Shown here: positions 36,507 to 42,212 of the stretch, piece after piece
Layout of the letters: each line of letters starts with the position of its first letter
Position numbering within the stretch: position 1 is the first letter of the stretch
From: Eubacterium coprostanoligenes
Lineage (GTDB): Bacteria > Bacillota > Clostridia > Oscillospirales > Acutalibacteraceae
DNA length: 64,000 bases
Direction of reading: 5' to 3'
Assembly: GCF_900167205.1 (NCBI RefSeq)
Contig: NZ_FUWW01000010.1
Coordinates: forward strand, 1 to 64,000
Made by a program: the position numbers and the translations under genes
The notes under the pieces: generated by a model
Seen by the model: the letters and a program-made list of their open reading frames with translations, nothing else
Database searches by the model: none
Told to the model about the DNA's origin: nothing

Positions 36507-36535
36507 TTGATAAAAACTGTGACTTATGCTATAAT
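36507..36535 (+). promoter_or_regulatory. Promoter of the SCP2-aminotransferase-transketolase operon
   Basis: -35 TTGATA (36507-36512), spacer 17, -10 TATAAT (36530-36535). The transcript would start near 36542 with a leader of about 58 bases. The bases from 36364 to 36506 are very AT-rich with no further recognised feature. Confidence 0.75.
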
Positions 36536-36599
36536 TTCAATGTATATTAGGCATTCGTATGTTGAATTTTAGCAACGACAGAATTAAGGAGGAATTGTT

Positions 36600-37364
36600 T
36601 TGAAAGAAGCAAAATCAATGGCATTTGTCAATGCGTACGGCGTTCTCGCAACATTAGAGAACCTTTGCGATATGGTTGACGAAGCAAAAGCAGTTTGCCG
36701 AGGACTCAAAAAGCCTGTTTCATTGTGCTTTGATGTTACAGACGGTCCTTGCGTAACTTATCATTTCACACAAGATGGATGCAAAATGACAGAGGGCGAC
36801 TATGGTTGCACCTGCAAGATGAAGTTTGCATCTCCTGAAAAATTCAATGCCCTTATTGATGACAGCAAGCCTGGTATTCCTGCAAAGAATATCGCACAGG
36901 TTTTGTCATTCCTTATGGGTCCTTTCACAAAGCTCACAAATATCTTGACAAAGTATCTTATGCCGAGTGAAGAAGATTTGAAGGATAAGGATTTCTTCAG
37001 AAAGTCAACTATCCTCACAATGTACACAATCGGCGGTGCTATTTGTGCATTAGGCAACACTGATTCAATCAGCAAACTTTCTGCATCATATATCCCTGAC
37101 GGCGACATTCAGATGGGTATCACAGACGCTTGCTATGTAACAATCAGAGCAAGAGATCATCACCTTGAACTTATCAAGGAAAAGCCTGACACTCCAAGAG
37201 CAGTTATGGAATTTAAGACTGTAGAGCTTGCAAATGCACTCTTCAACGGCACTGCATCAACAATGGCAGAGCTTTGTGCAGGCAACATCTATATGTGCGG
37301 TATGATTAATATGATTGACAATATCAACAGAATTCTTGACAGAGTTGCTGTATATTTGGGCTAA
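36600..37364 (+). CDS. SCP2-like tandem-domain protein A (unknown function)
   Basis: 254 residues, start at TTG 36600, seven bases after AAGGAGG (an ATG at 36618 is less well placed). No catalytic motif. Two stretches each look like a sterol-carrier-protein-2 domain. The first is about 38-105 (strand FDVTDG, then MKFASPEKFNALID). The second is about 185-254 (AVMEFKTVELANALFNG, then AELCAGNIYMCGMIN and a terminal helix). A helical segment (about 106-165) links them. SCP2 folds make hydrophobic tunnels that bind lipids or acyl-CoA. It heads an operon with an aminotransferase and a split transketolase, so it probably binds or carries a hydrophobic substrate. Domain assignment is by eye. Confidence 0.65.
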   Translation: MKEAKSMAFVNAYGVLATLENLCDMVDEAKAVCRGLKKPVSLCFDVTDGPCVTYHFTQDGCKMTEGDYGCTCKMKFASPEKFNALIDDSKPGIPAKNIAQVLSFLMGPFTKLTNILTKYLMPSEEDLKDKDFFRKSTILTMYTIGGAICALGNTDSISKLSASYIPDGDIQMGITDACYVTIRARDHHLELIKEKPDTPRAVMEFKTVELANALFNGTASTMAELCAGNIYMCGMINMIDNINRILDRVAVYLG

Positions 37365-37379
37365 GGAGGACACGGTATA

Positions 37380-38651
37380 ATGAGCAAATTCCCTGAATAT
37401 AAACACGAAAAATCACAAGAGTGGTTCAACAGAGCCCTCAACGCAATTCCTTCAGGTGTTTACGGTCACCTTGGTCCGTCTGAAGGCTTGTTCCTCCCAA
37501 TCACAAAATGGCCTTTGATGTCAGATCACGCAAAGGGCACATATTTTTGGGATGTAGACGGCAATAAGTATCTTGACTTTATGTGTGCTTACGGTCCAAA
37601 TGTTCTTGGCTATTGTGATGAGGATGTAGACGCAGCCGCTATGGCACAGCTCAAGCAGGGCAACTGCACAACTTCTCCGTCATATAAGATGGTAGAGTGT
37701 GCCGAACTCCTCAAGGATACTGTTGCAACAGCAGATTGGGCATTCTTTATGAAGAACGGCTCTGACGCAACAACTTTCTCTGTAATGTGTGCAAGAGCAC
37801 ATACAGGCAAAAAGAAGATGATGTTCTTCAAGGGCTACTATCACGGTGACTTCCAGTGGGCACAAAAGGCTGACTATCCGGGTATTCTCCCTGAAGAAGT
37901 AGAAAACAATGTTGTTGTTCCTTGGTTTGATATGGACGCTATGCAAAAGGCATATGATGAGGCAAACGGCGATTTCGCAGGTCTTATCGCACAGCCATAT
38001 GACCACGGTAACTTCTTTGATAACACAACTGCAACCAAAGAGCAGTGGGCAAAGGTTCGTAAGTTCTGTGACGATCACGGTATGGTTCTTATCATCGACG
38101 ATGTTCGTACAGGTTTCCGTCTTGACCTTGCCGGTTCTGACCATTACTATGGCTTTAAGGCAGACCTTATCTGTTTCTGTAAAGCACTTGCAAACGGCTA
38201 CAATATGTCTGCTGTATGCGGTCAGGAGCATATGAAAAATACTGCTTCATCAGTTGTATATACAGGTTCATATTGGATGAGTGCCGAGCCATTCGCTGCT
38301 TGTCTTGCTTGTATTCCAAAGATGAAGAGACTTGATACACCTAAGATGTTCAGAGAAAAGGGTACACTCCTTTGTGACGGTCTTGTTGCCGCAGGTAAGG
38401 AGCACGGCTTCAACCTTAAGGTTTCAGGTGAGCCTGCACTTTTCTATCTCCGTATCGCAAACGATGACAGCCTTATGCTTCATCAGGAGTGGATTGCTGA
38501 ATGTGTAAGCAGAGGTTTGTTCCTTGCTTCTCACCACAACCACTTCATGAACGCTGCCGTAACAGATGAGGACATCAAGCTCGCTGTTGATATTGCAGAA
38601 GATGCTTTCGGCGTTGTTGCTGCAAGACACCCGGAGTTGGGTCTTAAGTAA
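37380..38651 (+). CDS. Class III PLP-dependent aminotransferase (GSA-aminotransferase-like)
   Basis: 423-residue fold-type I enzyme. PLP lysine K268 in CFCKALANGYN; cofactor phosphate contact KNGSDATTFS (125-134); PLP-pyridine Asp in IIDDVRTGFRLD (238-249). Overall layout is like glutamate-1-semialdehyde aminomutase, but no heme genes are nearby and the DVRTGF/GFKADL region suggests a sugar- or ketone-type substrate group. It lies 15 bases after the SCP2-like gene, with AAGGAGG upstream. Relatives in amino-sugar, aminocyclitol and hopanoid pathways aminate keto or aldehyde groups. The substrate is unknown. Confidence 0.88.
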   Translation: MSKFPEYKHEKSQEWFNRALNAIPSGVYGHLGPSEGLFLPITKWPLMSDHAKGTYFWDVDGNKYLDFMCAYGPNVLGYCDEDVDAAAMAQLKQGNCTTSPSYKMVECAELLKDTVATADWAFFMKNGSDATTFSVMCARAHTGKKKMMFFKGYYHGDFQWAQKADYPGILPEEVENNVVVPWFDMDAMQKAYDEANGDFAGLIAQPYDHGNFFDNTTATKEQWAKVRKFCDDHGMVLIIDDVRTGFRLDLAGSDHYYGFKADLICFCKALANGYNMSAVCGQEHMKNTASSVVYTGSYWMSAEPFAACLACIPKMKRLDTPKMFREKGTLLCDGLVAAGKEHGFNLKVSGEPALFYLRIANDDSLMLHQEWIAECVSRGLFLASHHNHFMNAAVTDEDIKLAVDIAEDAFGVVAARHPELGLK

Positions 38652-38707
38652 TTTGAATTAAATAATTTTTGGAGTAAATTATTTTAATAAAAGAAAGGGG
38701 TATTTTT

Positions 38708-39601
38708 ATGCCAGCAAATTATGTGCCATTCGATAAAGAAGAATGGCTCCGCCTTGAAAAAAAGGCTGACTTTTTAAGACGCTACTGTTTGCAGACTGCC
38801 GTATGGGGCGGTTCGGGACATGTAGGCGGCTCGTTATCTGCAATGGATTGTATGACAATTCTCTACAATCGTTTTATGAAGATTGATCCTCAAAATCCGG
38901 ATATGCCGGACAGAGACCGTTTTGTTCTCTCAAAGGGTCACTGTGCAGTAGGCTACGCTCCTGTGCTTGTTGATTGCGGTTTTATGCCTGAAGAAGAACT
39001 TAAAATCTTCAACCTTACCGGTGCAAAAATCGGTATGCATATGGACTGCAACAAGGTTAAAGGTGTAGACTGCTCAACCGGTTCACTTGGTCACGGCCTT
39101 TCTCTTGCAGTAGGTTTTGCACTTGCAGGCAGAGTAAACGGCATTGACTATATGAACTATGTTCTTACCGGTGACGGCGAGCTCAACGAGGGTTCAAACT
39201 GGGAGGCTGCAATGAGTGCCGCACAGTTCAAACTTTCAAATGTTGTTGTTTTTGCCGATAACAACAAGTGTATGATTGACGGTCGTGTTGATGATGAAAT
39301 GAAGGTTGAACCTCTTGATAAGAAGTTCGAGGCTTTCGGCTTCAATGTTTTCCGTGTTGACGGTCATAATATGAAGGAACTCAACGACGCTATCGAAGCT
39401 GCTATCAAGAATCATCAGGATGGCGGTGACAAGCCGACAGCTATTATTATGGACACATTTAAGGGTGCCGGCGTTGACTTTATGCAGGATGACTACAAGT
39501 GGCACTACGGTTCACTTGATGATGAAAAACTTGCAAAAGCATATGCATCACTTGACAAATATTTGGCAGAGCGTTGTGCTCGTGTAGAAAAGGAGGCGTA
39601 A
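38708..39601 (+). CDS. Transketolase N-terminal subunit
   Basis: 297-residue thiamine diphosphate-binding half of a split transketolase. Substrate/cofactor histidines H38 (GSGHVGGSLS) and H78 (SKGHCA) are present, as is the TPP/Mg motif GDG (155-157) ending in NN (185-186). Split transketolases occur in archaea, anaerobes and antibiotic pathways such as that of the rifamycin starter unit. It pairs with the next gene, three bases away. In the operon it stands between an aminotransferase and a lipid-carrier-like protein rather than with pentose-phosphate genes. Confidence 0.93.
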   Translation: MPANYVPFDKEEWLRLEKKADFLRRYCLQTAVWGGSGHVGGSLSAMDCMTILYNRFMKIDPQNPDMPDRDRFVLSKGHCAVGYAPVLVDCGFMPEEELKIFNLTGAKIGMHMDCNKVKGVDCSTGSLGHGLSLAVGFALAGRVNGIDYMNYVLTGDGELNEGSNWEAAMSAAQFKLSNVVVFADNNKCMIDGRVDDEMKVEPLDKKFEAFGFNVFRVDGHNMKELNDAIEAAIKNHQDGGDKPTAIIMDTFKGAGVDFMQDDYKWHYGSLDDEKLAKAYASLDKYLAERCARVEKEA

Positions 39602-39604
39602 GAT

Positions 39605-40615
39605 ATGGGTGGTATGTCTTATACAATGACAGATACAACAAAGCTGTCAACAGCAGAATGCTACGGTATCGCTCTTTGTGAGCTCGGTGAAGAACATAAG
39701 GATGTTGTCGCTCTTACAGCCGACCTTGCAAAATCAACAAAAATCGGAATGTTCGGTGAAAAGTTCCCGGATAGATTCTTCAATGTAGGTATCGCAGAGC
39801 AAAATATGTTCGGTGTAGCAGCAGGTATGGCTAAAAACGGATTGATTCCTTTTGCTTCAACATTTGCTATTTTCACCGCAGCAAGATCTCTTGACCAAAT
39901 CCATACAGACATTTGCTATCAAAATGTTCCTGTAAAGATGATTGCAACTCACGCAGGTACATCATTCGGTCAGGCAGGTTCAACTCACCATGCACTTATT
40001 GATATGGCTTGTATGAGAACTTTGCCTCACATGACTGTTATTTGCCCTTGTGACGGTGCAGAAACATACAATGCAGTTAAGGCTGCTTATGATATTGAGG
40101 GTCCTGTTTATATTCGTATCAACAGAGGTTTCGACCAGGTTATCTATAAGAGCCCTGAGGAGTGCAACTTCGTTTGGGATAAGGCTTCTGTTATGAACGA
40201 AGGTACAGACATCACTGTTATCGCTTGCGGTTCATGTGTATTCGAGGCTATGCAGGCTGCTCGTATCGCTGCATCAGACGGCGGTCTTTCAGTTCGTGTT
40301 CTTAATATGCACACAATCAAGCCTATTGATAAAGAGGCTGTTCTTTCAGCAATTTCAGATACTCGCCGTATCATCACTGTTGAGGACCACGAAGTTATGG
40401 GTGGTTTGGGCTCAGCTGTTGCAGAGGTTGTTGCTTCTTCAGGTAAGGCTTGTGCATTCAAGATGCTCGGTCACCAAGACGCATTCTCAACAATCGGCTT
40501 GCAGGAAGACCTTCTTGCTATGGCAAAGATTGATGCAAACGGTATCGCAGAAACAATTCAGGAAATGATGCACGCTGATTTTGAGGCAGACGATGCTTGG
40601 GATGATGAGTTCTAA
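39605..40615 (+). CDS. Transketolase C-terminal subunit
   Basis: 336-residue partner with the pyrimidine-binding and C-terminal domains. The catalytic glutamate is E65 in VGIAEQNMFG. H116 (ATHAG) and H128/H129 (GSTHHALID) occupy the donor-sugar histidine positions. The usual transketolase phrase after the first His is changed (THAGTSFGQAG), so donor or acceptor choice may differ. Start ATG 39605 follows AGGAGG. A gap of 50 bases separates it from the next SCP2-like gene. Confidence 0.92.
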   Translation: MGGMSYTMTDTTKLSTAECYGIALCELGEEHKDVVALTADLAKSTKIGMFGEKFPDRFFNVGIAEQNMFGVAAGMAKNGLIPFASTFAIFTAARSLDQIHTDICYQNVPVKMIATHAGTSFGQAGSTHHALIDMACMRTLPHMTVICPCDGAETYNAVKAAYDIEGPVYIRINRGFDQVIYKSPEECNFVWDKASVMNEGTDITVIACGSCVFEAMQAARIAASDGGLSVRVLNMHTIKPIDKEAVLSAISDTRRIITVEDHEVMGGLGSAVAEVVASSGKACAFKMLGHQDAFSTIGLQEDLLAMAKIDANGIAETIQEMMHADFEADDAWDDEF

Positions 40616-40665
40616 AGAAAATTCACCAATCTCAATTGTTATCTAACCGAAAGGAGTGTATTATT

Positions 40666-41466
40666 ATGCCAAGCGATGAGGTTCGCTACACAAATAAAGT
40701 CTTTATGGCGGGCGCAATGCCACTTTTAAAGACTATTGCTACCGATGTTCCTGAACTCAAAAAGAAGTTTGAGGGCGTGGACGCAATTTATCAAGTTTCC
40801 GCAAGGGTAAATGCGGAAGATGTTGAGGCTGTTCACTTTATTATCGAAAACGGTGAATGGACTGTTAAGCTCGGTGAATATCTCGGACAGAAGAAGATTG
40901 ATGCAGAGCTTGCTTTTCCGTCAATGGAAAAGATGAATGAATTTATGAAGGGCAAGGTTGCAAACCTTCTCCCTGCTTTGAGAATTAAGAATTTCGGCAA
41001 GTTCTTGAAGTTTATGCAGGTTCTCCTCAAGATGTCATCACTTTTGGGCATCAAGGACCCTGACAGCGTTGATGAGCCAACCGCAATTCTTCTTTGCAAG
41101 CTCTATTTCTACTTGCTTTCATCGGGTATCTCACAGCTTAATAAGCTCGGACATCCTGACATTCACGAATGGGCACTTAAATCACCTGACCGTTGCTATC
41201 AATGGGAGGTTATCGGCCATCCTGAATGTACAGCGTATATTCGTATCAAGGCAGGTAAGTCGAGAGCCGGCAGAGGCGAGTACAAGAGAGCAAAGCCGTT
41301 CTTCAATATGAAGTTCGACTGTCCAAAATCTGCTCTTATGATTCTTCTCGGCACAGGCGATATGTTCAAGATGACTGCTGAAAAGCAACTCATTATGGAC
41401 GGCGGTCCTGAATTTGGTGTTCAAATCGGCGACTATATGATGCTTGTCGGAGCACTTGCTTCATAA
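40666..41466 (+). CDS. SCP2-like tandem-domain protein B (unknown function)
   Basis: 266 residues from ATG 40666 (AAAGGAG nine bases before). Like protein A it lacks a catalytic motif and appears to have two SCP2-type halves: about 40-110 (HFIIENGEWTVKLGE, then AELAFPSMEKMNEFMKG) and about 190-266 (AYIRIKAG, FFNMKFDCPKSALMILLG, LIMDGGPEFGVQIGDYMML). They are joined by a helical stretch rich in Leu, Met and Phe (about 111-160). A and B differ strongly in sequence but share length and layout, so they may form a heteromeric carrier or lid for the enzymes between them. It is the last gene before a strong terminator. Confidence 0.62.
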   Translation: MPSDEVRYTNKVFMAGAMPLLKTIATDVPELKKKFEGVDAIYQVSARVNAEDVEAVHFIIENGEWTVKLGEYLGQKKIDAELAFPSMEKMNEFMKGKVANLLPALRIKNFGKFLKFMQVLLKMSSLLGIKDPDSVDEPTAILLCKLYFYLLSSGISQLNKLGHPDIHEWALKSPDRCYQWEVIGHPECTAYIRIKAGKSRAGRGEYKRAKPFFNMKFDCPKSALMILLGTGDMFKMTAEKQLIMDGGPEFGVQIGDYMMLVGALAS

Positions 41467-41489
41467 AATAAAATCATAAAACAAAAATC

Positions 41490-41513
41490 GAGGCTACGGA
41501 TTTCCGTAGCCTC
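41490..41513 (+). terminator. Terminator of the SCP2-transketolase operon
   Basis: Perfect 11-bp inverted repeat GAGGCTACGGA / TCCGTAGCCTC followed by TTTG; the tail is weak but the stem is strong. Confidence 0.75.
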
Positions 41514-41529
41514 TTTGTGTACTCAGCCG

Positions 41530-41646
41530 TTAGTTACAACCGCAACCGCAGTCGTTGTTGTTGAAACCGCCACATAAAAGAAGGATGATGATAAGGATAA
41601 TTACCCAAGAAGAATTACCGCATCCGCAATTATTGCAACAACCCAT
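41530..41646 (-). CDS. 38-residue Cys/Gly/Asn-rich membrane miniprotein
   Basis: Strong ribosome site (AAAGGAGGT, seven to eight bases before ATG 41646). The peptide starts MGCCNNCGCGNSSW, has one hydrophobic helix (about 15-25: VIILIIILLLC) and ends GFNNNDCGCGCN. Eight cysteines in 38 residues, arranged on both sides of the helix, suggest metal binding or disulfides. Similar Cys/Gly-rich single-helix peptides occur in spore-forming Firmicutes, some as spore proteins. Function unknown. Confidence 0.65.
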   Translation of the reverse strand: MGCCNNCGCGNSSWVIILIIILLLCGGFNNNDCGCGCN

Positions 41647-41769
41647 TGTGCGACCTCCTTTCGTGTTTTCTAACTCATACTATGAAAATCGCACGGAAGT
41701 GTTACAATTGAAAAAACCACACTGAATTTCGATGTGGTTTGCAGAATGTATTGTCTTATTGTCGCTTAA

Positions 41770-41812
41770 AAGGATATGAACACCGTAGGGACGAACTGTG
41801 TTCGCCTAATTA
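41770..41812. repeat. Fragment of an interspersed hairpin repeat
   Basis: GTAGGGACGAACTGTGTTCG contains a perfect 5-bp stem (CGAAC-TGT-GTTCG) and is more GC-rich than its flanks. It looks like the truncated end of a short intergenic repeat. No second copy is in the window. Confidence 0.35.
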
Positions 41813-41831
41813 CTTTTTTTATAAATAAAAA

Positions 41832-41857
41832 GCCTCCCTTTATATCAAAAGGGAAGC
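41832..41857 (-). terminator. Terminator of the SCP2 gene
   Basis: Minus-strand hairpin (GCTTCCCTTT / AAAGGGAGGC with one mismatch), followed by TTTTTATTTATAAAAAAA, 23 bases past the SCP2 stop. Confidence 0.75.
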
Positions 41858-41879
41858 CGTGTTTGATTATGTGGCTTTT

Positions 41880-42212
41880 TTAGCCCAAGAACTTTGTCAT
41901 CTCAAGTGCCGCATTTACGTCGCCGTCAACTGTGAGTTTGCCGGTTGTGAATGCAACAACAGGGTTGAGTTTGCCGTTGATGAGCTTGATCCAGTTTGTG
42001 CCGTTGATGTGAATAATAGCATTTCTGTCATAATATTCATAAGGCTCAACATGTACCTGACCGTCTTTTATTTCTATGTAAAAAATGCCGTTGACTGCTT
42101 TGCCTTCAATGTTAATCTGAAAAGCCATTGTACCTTGTACGTTTGAAACATCTGCGTTGTAGAATTTTGTTCTGGTAGCTGACACGATTGATTCATATGT
42201 CATACCTGCCAT
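41880..42212 (-). CDS. Single-domain SCP2 sterol-carrier family protein
   Basis: 110-residue protein that is a complete SCP2 domain: GTMAFQINIEGKAVNGIFYIEI-type beta-sheet, the acidic turn VEPYEYYDR, NGTNWIKLINGKLNPVVAFTTGKL and the closing GDVNAALEMTKFLG helix. Such proteins bind lipids in a hydrophobic pocket. It is transcribed towards the SCP2-transketolase operon from its own promoter, with AAGGAGG before ATG 42212. A third SCP2-fold gene within 6 kb suggests shared lipid biology. Confidence 0.9.
   Translation of the reverse strand: MAGMTYESIVSATRTKFYNADVSNVQGTMAFQINIEGKAVNGIFYIEIKDGQVHVEPYEYYDRNAIIHINGTNWIKLINGKLNPVVAFTTGKLTVDGDVNAALEMTKFLG

Follow-up and report, generated by a model that had tools for sequence, protein, structure and literature searches.

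Five co-directional genes in the genome of Eubacterium coprostanoligenes may encode a two-step pathway for sphingoid-base lipids in which each enzyme is served by a dedicated carrier. The genes, labeled A to E by the order of their open reading frames (ORFs), are located in the first 64,000 nucleotides of contig NZ_FUWW01000010.1 (this whole stretch is referred to here as the window). They encode a class III aminotransferase (B), the two halves of a split transketolase (C and D), and two proteins that are predicted to contain tandem SCP2 folds (A and E). A nearby SCP2 gene is kept separate from this set. We give the proposed pathway about an even chance of being correct. A sequence-only reading of this DNA had suggested that the products work as one system on a hydrophobic substrate. 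That suggestion is strengthened by the kinship of B to FumI, the loss of an Asp-Arg pair from C-D, and the pairing of A with B and of E with C-D. It is still a proposal, and the genes form two modules that sometimes occur apart.

Sphingoid bases have the general structure HOCH2-CH(NH2)-CH(OH)-R. In the proposed pathway, B would act on a long-chain 2-amino-1,3-diol, for example sphinganine, and replace its amino group at C2 with a ketone. The product, HOCH2-CO-CH(OH)-R, would be a ketol donor for a transketolase. C-D would cleave it between C2 and C3 to release a fatty aldehyde, R-CHO, and transfer the remaining two carbons to a sugar phosphate. The reaction might also run in reverse. A and E would keep the insoluble substrate, intermediate, and aldehyde dissolved, A for delivery to B and E for delivery to C-D. 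The chemical fit between transamination and ketol cleavage would account for the joining of B with C-D and for the need of a carrier for each. In this scheme we infer the substrate, the direction, the carrier cargo, and the physical contact between carriers and enzymes.

Pfam models match B (Aminotran_3, 8.5e-38), C (Transketolase_N, 9.9e-47), and D (Transket_pyr and Transketolase_C, 1.8e-42), in agreement with the enzymes that the sequence-only reading had named. The best solved relative of B is FumI (270 bits; PDB 6hbs), an aminopentol aminotransferase of the same class III subfamily from the fumonisin degradation cluster of Sphingopyxis. Glutamate-1-semialdehyde aminomutase is next (149 bits). 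FumI is 35-42% identical to cluster B members and matches them at 89 of the 137 positions conserved among these proteins. The pyridoxal phosphate (PLP) lysine, K268, is conserved in B. A HemL function in heme synthesis is ruled out by score, since B reaches 174 bits against a curated cut-off of 527. FumI transfers the 2-amino group of hydrolyzed fumonisin B1, a sphinganine analog, to pyruvate (PMC2933618). It thereby converts C2 to a ketone, as is proposed for B, and its substrate differs in having no C1 hydroxyl. These likenesses suggest that B is a FumI-like class III transaminase, and deamination of a sphingoid-type amine is predicted.

The relationship of B to FumI could also mean that the operon detoxifies fumonisin-like mycotoxins. 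Such a role is very improbable, given the broad chromosomal spread of the operon in gut and rumen Clostridia, its lack of a FumD-like esterase, and the requirement of a transketolase for a C1 hydroxyl that is missing from fumonisins. To our knowledge, the fum cluster includes neither a transketolase nor an SCP2 carrier.

C-D has the two-gene architecture, thiamine diphosphate (ThDP) cofactor, and catalytic residues of two other split transketolases, that of Carboxydothermus hydrogenoformans (6yaj/6yak) and the housekeeping copy on another contig of the window genome. All main-type cluster copies keep the positions of human E366, H37, H77, H110, D155, N185, H258, and H416. The differences lie at residues that we take, partly from general knowledge of transketolase structures, to be substrate contacts in the human and E. 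coli enzymes. Ala replaces human Asp424 (E. coli D469) in 82 of 82 cluster copies, and Asn replaces human Arg101 (E. coli R91) in 82 of 83, with an X in the other. Of the 78 main-type copies, 77 have lost the phosphate-binding Arg318, which four variants keep. The controls, 20 housekeeping split transketolases taken from this and related genomes, differ in retaining the Asp (19/20), the Arg (19/20), and Arg318 (20/20). C-D is therefore not a plain duplicate of the pentose phosphate transketolase, because a housekeeping copy exists and the active sites differ.

Judged by these alignments, the acceptor site of C-D is altered, and the Asp-Arg salt bridge for hydroxylated acceptors appears to be gone. 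The E. coli D469T substitution removes the salt bridge to R91, yields a hydrophobic surface, and allows propanal and other non-polar aldehydes to be accepted (PMC5073344, PMC10787763). These laboratory changes seem to have a natural counterpart in the cluster C-D. The ketone HOCH2-CO-CH(OH)-R would suit the altered site because it carries no C4 hydroxyl, where the lost Asp would have bound. The equivalents of E. coli H100 and H473, the positions changed in E. coli variants that accept pyruvate, are His in the cluster copies. Because they stay His, the transferred two-carbon unit probably retains its C1 hydroxyl and is likely to be hydroxyacetyl, not acetyl.

The same transaminase-transketolase chemistry could instead act on another hydrophobic aldehyde or amine, whether isoprenoid, aromatic, or branched. 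Loss of the Asp-Arg pair admits non-polar aldehydes generally, aromatic ones included (PMC5073344), and SCP2 folds bind many lipids. A substrate of this kind is nevertheless rather unlikely, because the nearest characterized relative of B, FumI, has a long-chain 2-amino-3-hydroxy lipid as its substrate.

Neither A nor E of the window matches any Pfam or NCBIfam model at its cut-off, and two variant E proteins score 15-16 bits on PF02036 against a gathering cut-off of 21.3. AlphaFold models of A and E, built from alignments of 24 and 25 relatives and with a mean pLDDT of 84 each, contain two SCP2 folds apiece, which supports the lipid-carrier fold that had been recognized from sequence. For both models, the top structure matches consist of SCP2 proteins and of alkylsulfatase end domains that resemble SCP2. 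In VIA-align comparisons, residues 141-264 of E superimpose on human MFE-2 SCP2L (Z 11.8, 113 residues, 2.7 Å) and residues 7-132 on another SCP2 (Z 10.3). The halves of A also align with SCP2 folds (5-119, Z 8.1; 132-246, Z 7.5); these scores are near the middling level of VIA-align, but SCP2 domains fill almost all of the top rows, and E is a homologue of A. According to the models, then, A and E are tandem SCP2 domains with one fold per half. They share this fold with the SCP2 superfamily (PF02036; for example, human MFE-2 SCP2L and insect SCP2), from which they differ by tandem duplication, by sequences below the Pfam threshold, and by a strict tie to two enzymes.

A profile of 83 A proteins recovers 78 of 79 E proteins at E < 1e-3, and a tree of 52 proteins divides A and E into two clean clades with support of 100/100. 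Long branches make the inner order of this tree unsure and do not affect the A/E split. Across the tree and the loci, every A adjoins B and every E adjoins C-D. The two proteins are ancient paralogues, each tied to one enzyme, and their cargo would be a long-chain lipid.

The operon is widely conserved. A scan of 84,980 species based on B matched at least 589 stretches, and the best 80 loci were analyzed. The complete A-B-C-D-E order is present in 67 of these; seven others end at a contig edge but agree with the order, and six contain A-B only. Co-conservation of the neighbors in relatives had been set beforehand as a test of the sequence-only reading, as had an SCP2 fold in the two flanking proteins, and the reading withstood both tests. 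All of the best 80 loci are labeled Clostridia or Bacillota, except for one odd record label, and most belong to Oscillospiraceae or Ruminococcaceae of gut and rumen origin. Conservation of the gene set over many species and several families argues that the operon is not a chance arrangement. The repeated outside neighbors are housekeeping genes that differ between groups, and no conserved partner genes were found among the locus neighbors outside the operon, so the five genes are taken as the unit. Most complete genomes in a sample of the genus carry A and E, which are missing together from several. In a phylum-wide sample, the same gene order is found in three genomes (G643, G502, and G722), which extends it to other families, and a fourth (G503) has C-D-E and A-B at two separate places.

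The system thus consists of two modules, A-B and C-D-E, that are occasionally apart. Two genomes with A-B-only loci (G731 and G735) carry C-D-E elsewhere. Four more (G730, G732, G733, and G734), which are metagenome-assembled genomes (MAGs) of unknown completeness, have A-B, no E, and only transketolases of at most 44% identity. In these cases (loci L116, L113, L114, and L118) the transaminase and carrier A may be functional alone. Each module is found alone in four genomes, so A-B and C-D-E are not obligately consecutive. They might even be independent lipid modules that are merely co-transcribed and do not act in sequence. Their separate occurrence fits this arrangement, which is quite improbable since the joined order is the rule across many species and the split genomes G503 and G731 still hold both modules. 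No distant relatives of A were found in 245 genomes of the class with a profile of the genus alone. This negative is at least partly a limit of sensitivity or sampling, because distant A relatives came to light only when the neighborhoods of E were read. G735 (L115 and L220) combines its A-B pair with a variant-type C-D-E in which the Arg is kept and the Asp is Ala; this combination represents either mixed modules or MAG contamination.

In four genomes (G097, G265, G268, and G304), C-D-E is accompanied by a Zn alcohol dehydrogenase, and the cluster has no aminotransferase. By replacing the aminotransferase, this enzyme could generate the same ketone from a 1,2,3-triol. A MerR-like regulator follows the dehydrogenase in G097, G265, and G268, where the contig reaches that far. 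Only the variant cluster of G268 (L064) also includes an aldehyde dehydrogenase, and a close homologue is not consistently present in the genus, which rules it out as a fixed partner. The company that C-D-E keeps with these dehydrogenases speaks for the proposed pathway. A GNAT-type protein that adjoins the variant cluster at L062 and L065 is possibly a ceramide-synthase-like acyltransferase. Distant homologues were found in only two of 40 searched genomes (G039 and G051), both with a strong alpha-oxoamine synthase match. The protein was rejected as the ceramide synthase of the system because it is absent from the operon-bearing genus members searched.

Several observations weigh against a sphingoid-base pathway. 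In the window, the operon has neither a transporter nor a ceramidase, an acyltransferase, or an aldehyde enzyme. Four genomes of unknown completeness carry A-B but lack a cluster-type C-D-E, and four others carry C-D-E but lack A-B. SCP2 folds are not used as lipid carriers everywhere; among the structure matches, the end domains of Eis and of alkylsulfatases lack a lipid-transfer function. Finally, C-D keeps the phosphate ligands Ser345, His416, and Arg474, which may only reflect the need of the other half-reaction for a sugar phosphate. The kept ligands, and the polar compounds that transketolases and class III transaminases normally take, would also fit a polar aminopolyol or amino sugar as the substrate, with the SCP2-fold proteins serving as scaffolds or chaperones without lipid cargo. 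We regard this as improbable because loss of Asp424 and Arg101 abolishes recognition of hydroxylated acceptors, and because two separate SCP2 carriers, kept across a long divergence, suggest a hydrophobic cargo.

If sphingoid bases are the substrate, the pathway might also run as synthesis, with a two-carbon unit added to a fatty aldehyde and subsequent amination yielding sphingoid bases without serine palmitoyltransferase. The genome-wide content of the window organism was checked through targeted searches. A TIGR01825 search for alpha-oxoamine synthase gave 18 bits in its own genome and no good match in the sampled genus (at most ~23 bits), as would be expected for synthesis by another route. 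A study with cultures and germ-free mice reports that Flavonifractor plautii, a relative among the gut Oscillospiraceae, makes phytosphingosine, and we found no responsible gene named in it (PMC11914097). Synthesis would also be consistent with a chromosomal, widespread operon that lacks a catabolic regulator or transporter. However, A-B in genomes that lack C-D-E would have nothing to aminate, the single acyltransferase candidate has no homologue in operon-bearing genus members, and the aldehyde dehydrogenase beside C-D-E in one variant would suit an aldehyde as the product. Synthesis as the function of the operon is rather unlikely. Between the two directions we lean modestly toward degradation because A-B exists without C-D-E and because one variant operon includes the aldehyde dehydrogenase.

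Engineered transketolase-transaminase cascades follow the same reaction logic, converting aldehydes to 1,3-dihydroxy-2-ketones and then to 2-amino-1,3-diols. Those cascades are laboratory constructs for short or aromatic aldehydes (enzyme variants in PMC5073344 and PMC10787763), whereas the proposed pathway would be natural and would include lipid carriers. Metabolism by serine palmitoyltransferase and sphingosine-1-phosphate lyase would share compounds with the proposed pathway, and the lyase too releases a fatty aldehyde. It differs in its enzymes and chemistry, and its alpha-oxoamine synthase was not found in the sampled genus. We put at slightly less than even the chance that anaerobic gut Clostridia make or break down sphingoid bases by a natural transketolase-transaminase pathway that has one tandem-SCP2 carrier per enzyme and is independent of both canonical enzymes. 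The sequence-only reading knew of no characterized pathway with this gene content, and we likewise found no published description that combines genes A-E in the open-access literature. Within that literature the carrier family, the arrangement of one carrier per enzyme, and the pathway itself appear to be new; the enzyme superfamilies and the reaction logic are already known.

The gut is rich in sphingoid bases, signaling lipids that stem from Bacteroides, the diet, and the host. If the proposed pathway exists, it would be a third chemistry for sphingoid bases, encoded in a widespread operon, and would link lipid turnover to the pentose phosphate pathway. The paired lipid carriers would be a new family whose members deliver substrates to soluble enzymes, and biocatalysis would gain natural lipid-tolerant transketolases.

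The layout of the operon agrees with the earlier description of five co-directional genes that share one promoter and one terminator (Table 1). Genes A-E are separated by gaps of 15, 56, 3, and 50 nucleotides, and gene E has an alternative TTG start at 40636, upstream of 40666. Promoter-like sites as a class are not enriched in the window (17 versus 17.5 after shuffling), and the case for an operon is therefore built chiefly on gene spacing and conservation. A riboswitch was looked for in the operon leader and none was found. The canonical single-domain SCP2 gene beyond the terminator is real (PF02036, 9e-13) and lies just past the operon as had been noted, but it is on the opposite strand. 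Apart from the window, only one close relative (L066) has this gene next to the operon, and it is therefore not a member.

Table 1. Features of the operon in the window and of related loci (positions preceded by an L number refer to that locus)
Feature	Position	Strand	Basis
Promoter-like site TTGATA-17-TATAAT, extended -10	36507..36535	+	Motif scan, 11/12 consensus matches
Ribosome binding site AAGGAGG preceding the TTG start of gene A	36586..36592	+	Sequence
Gene A, predicted tandem SCP2-fold protein, 254 aa, TTG start at 36600, partner of aminotransferase	36600..37364	+	ORF, AlphaFold model, structure alignment, locus comparison
Gene B, class III PLP aminotransferase, FumI-like (36% identity), catalytic Lys268	37380..38651	+	Pfam, structure relatives
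Gene C, N-terminal half of split transketolase, ThDP-binding; human Arg101 position is Asn	38708..39601	+	Pfam, alignment
Gene D, C-terminal half of split transketolase; human Asp424 is Ala124, Arg318 is Ala17	39605..40615	+	Pfam, alignment
Gene E, predicted tandem SCP2-fold protein, 266 aa, paralogue of A, partner of transketolase	40666..41466	+	ORF, AlphaFold model, structure alignment
Intrinsic terminator, strong hairpin; bidirectional by sequence	41490..41513	+	Sequence scan
SCP2 gene, outside the operon	41880-42212	-	Pfam
Variant clusters (split transketolase, E-like tandem SCP2, Zn alcohol dehydrogenase, MerR-like regulator)	L062 1276-5485; L064 3043-9463; L065 7023-12075		
GNAT-type protein adjoining variant cluster	L062 153-1277; L065 6335-7030		
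Second class III aminotransferase	L097 3467-4960; L129 510-2048; L152 3336-4883 (-); L124 1-485 (-)		
TetR-like regulator	L075 6600-7250; L076 6128-6778		

Two other neighbors recur near the operon. Upstream of the operon, on the opposite strand, several genomes carry another class III aminotransferase, which is about 500 amino acids long and 26-30% identical to B. In both genomes of one genus, a TetR-like regulator is located downstream of the operon.

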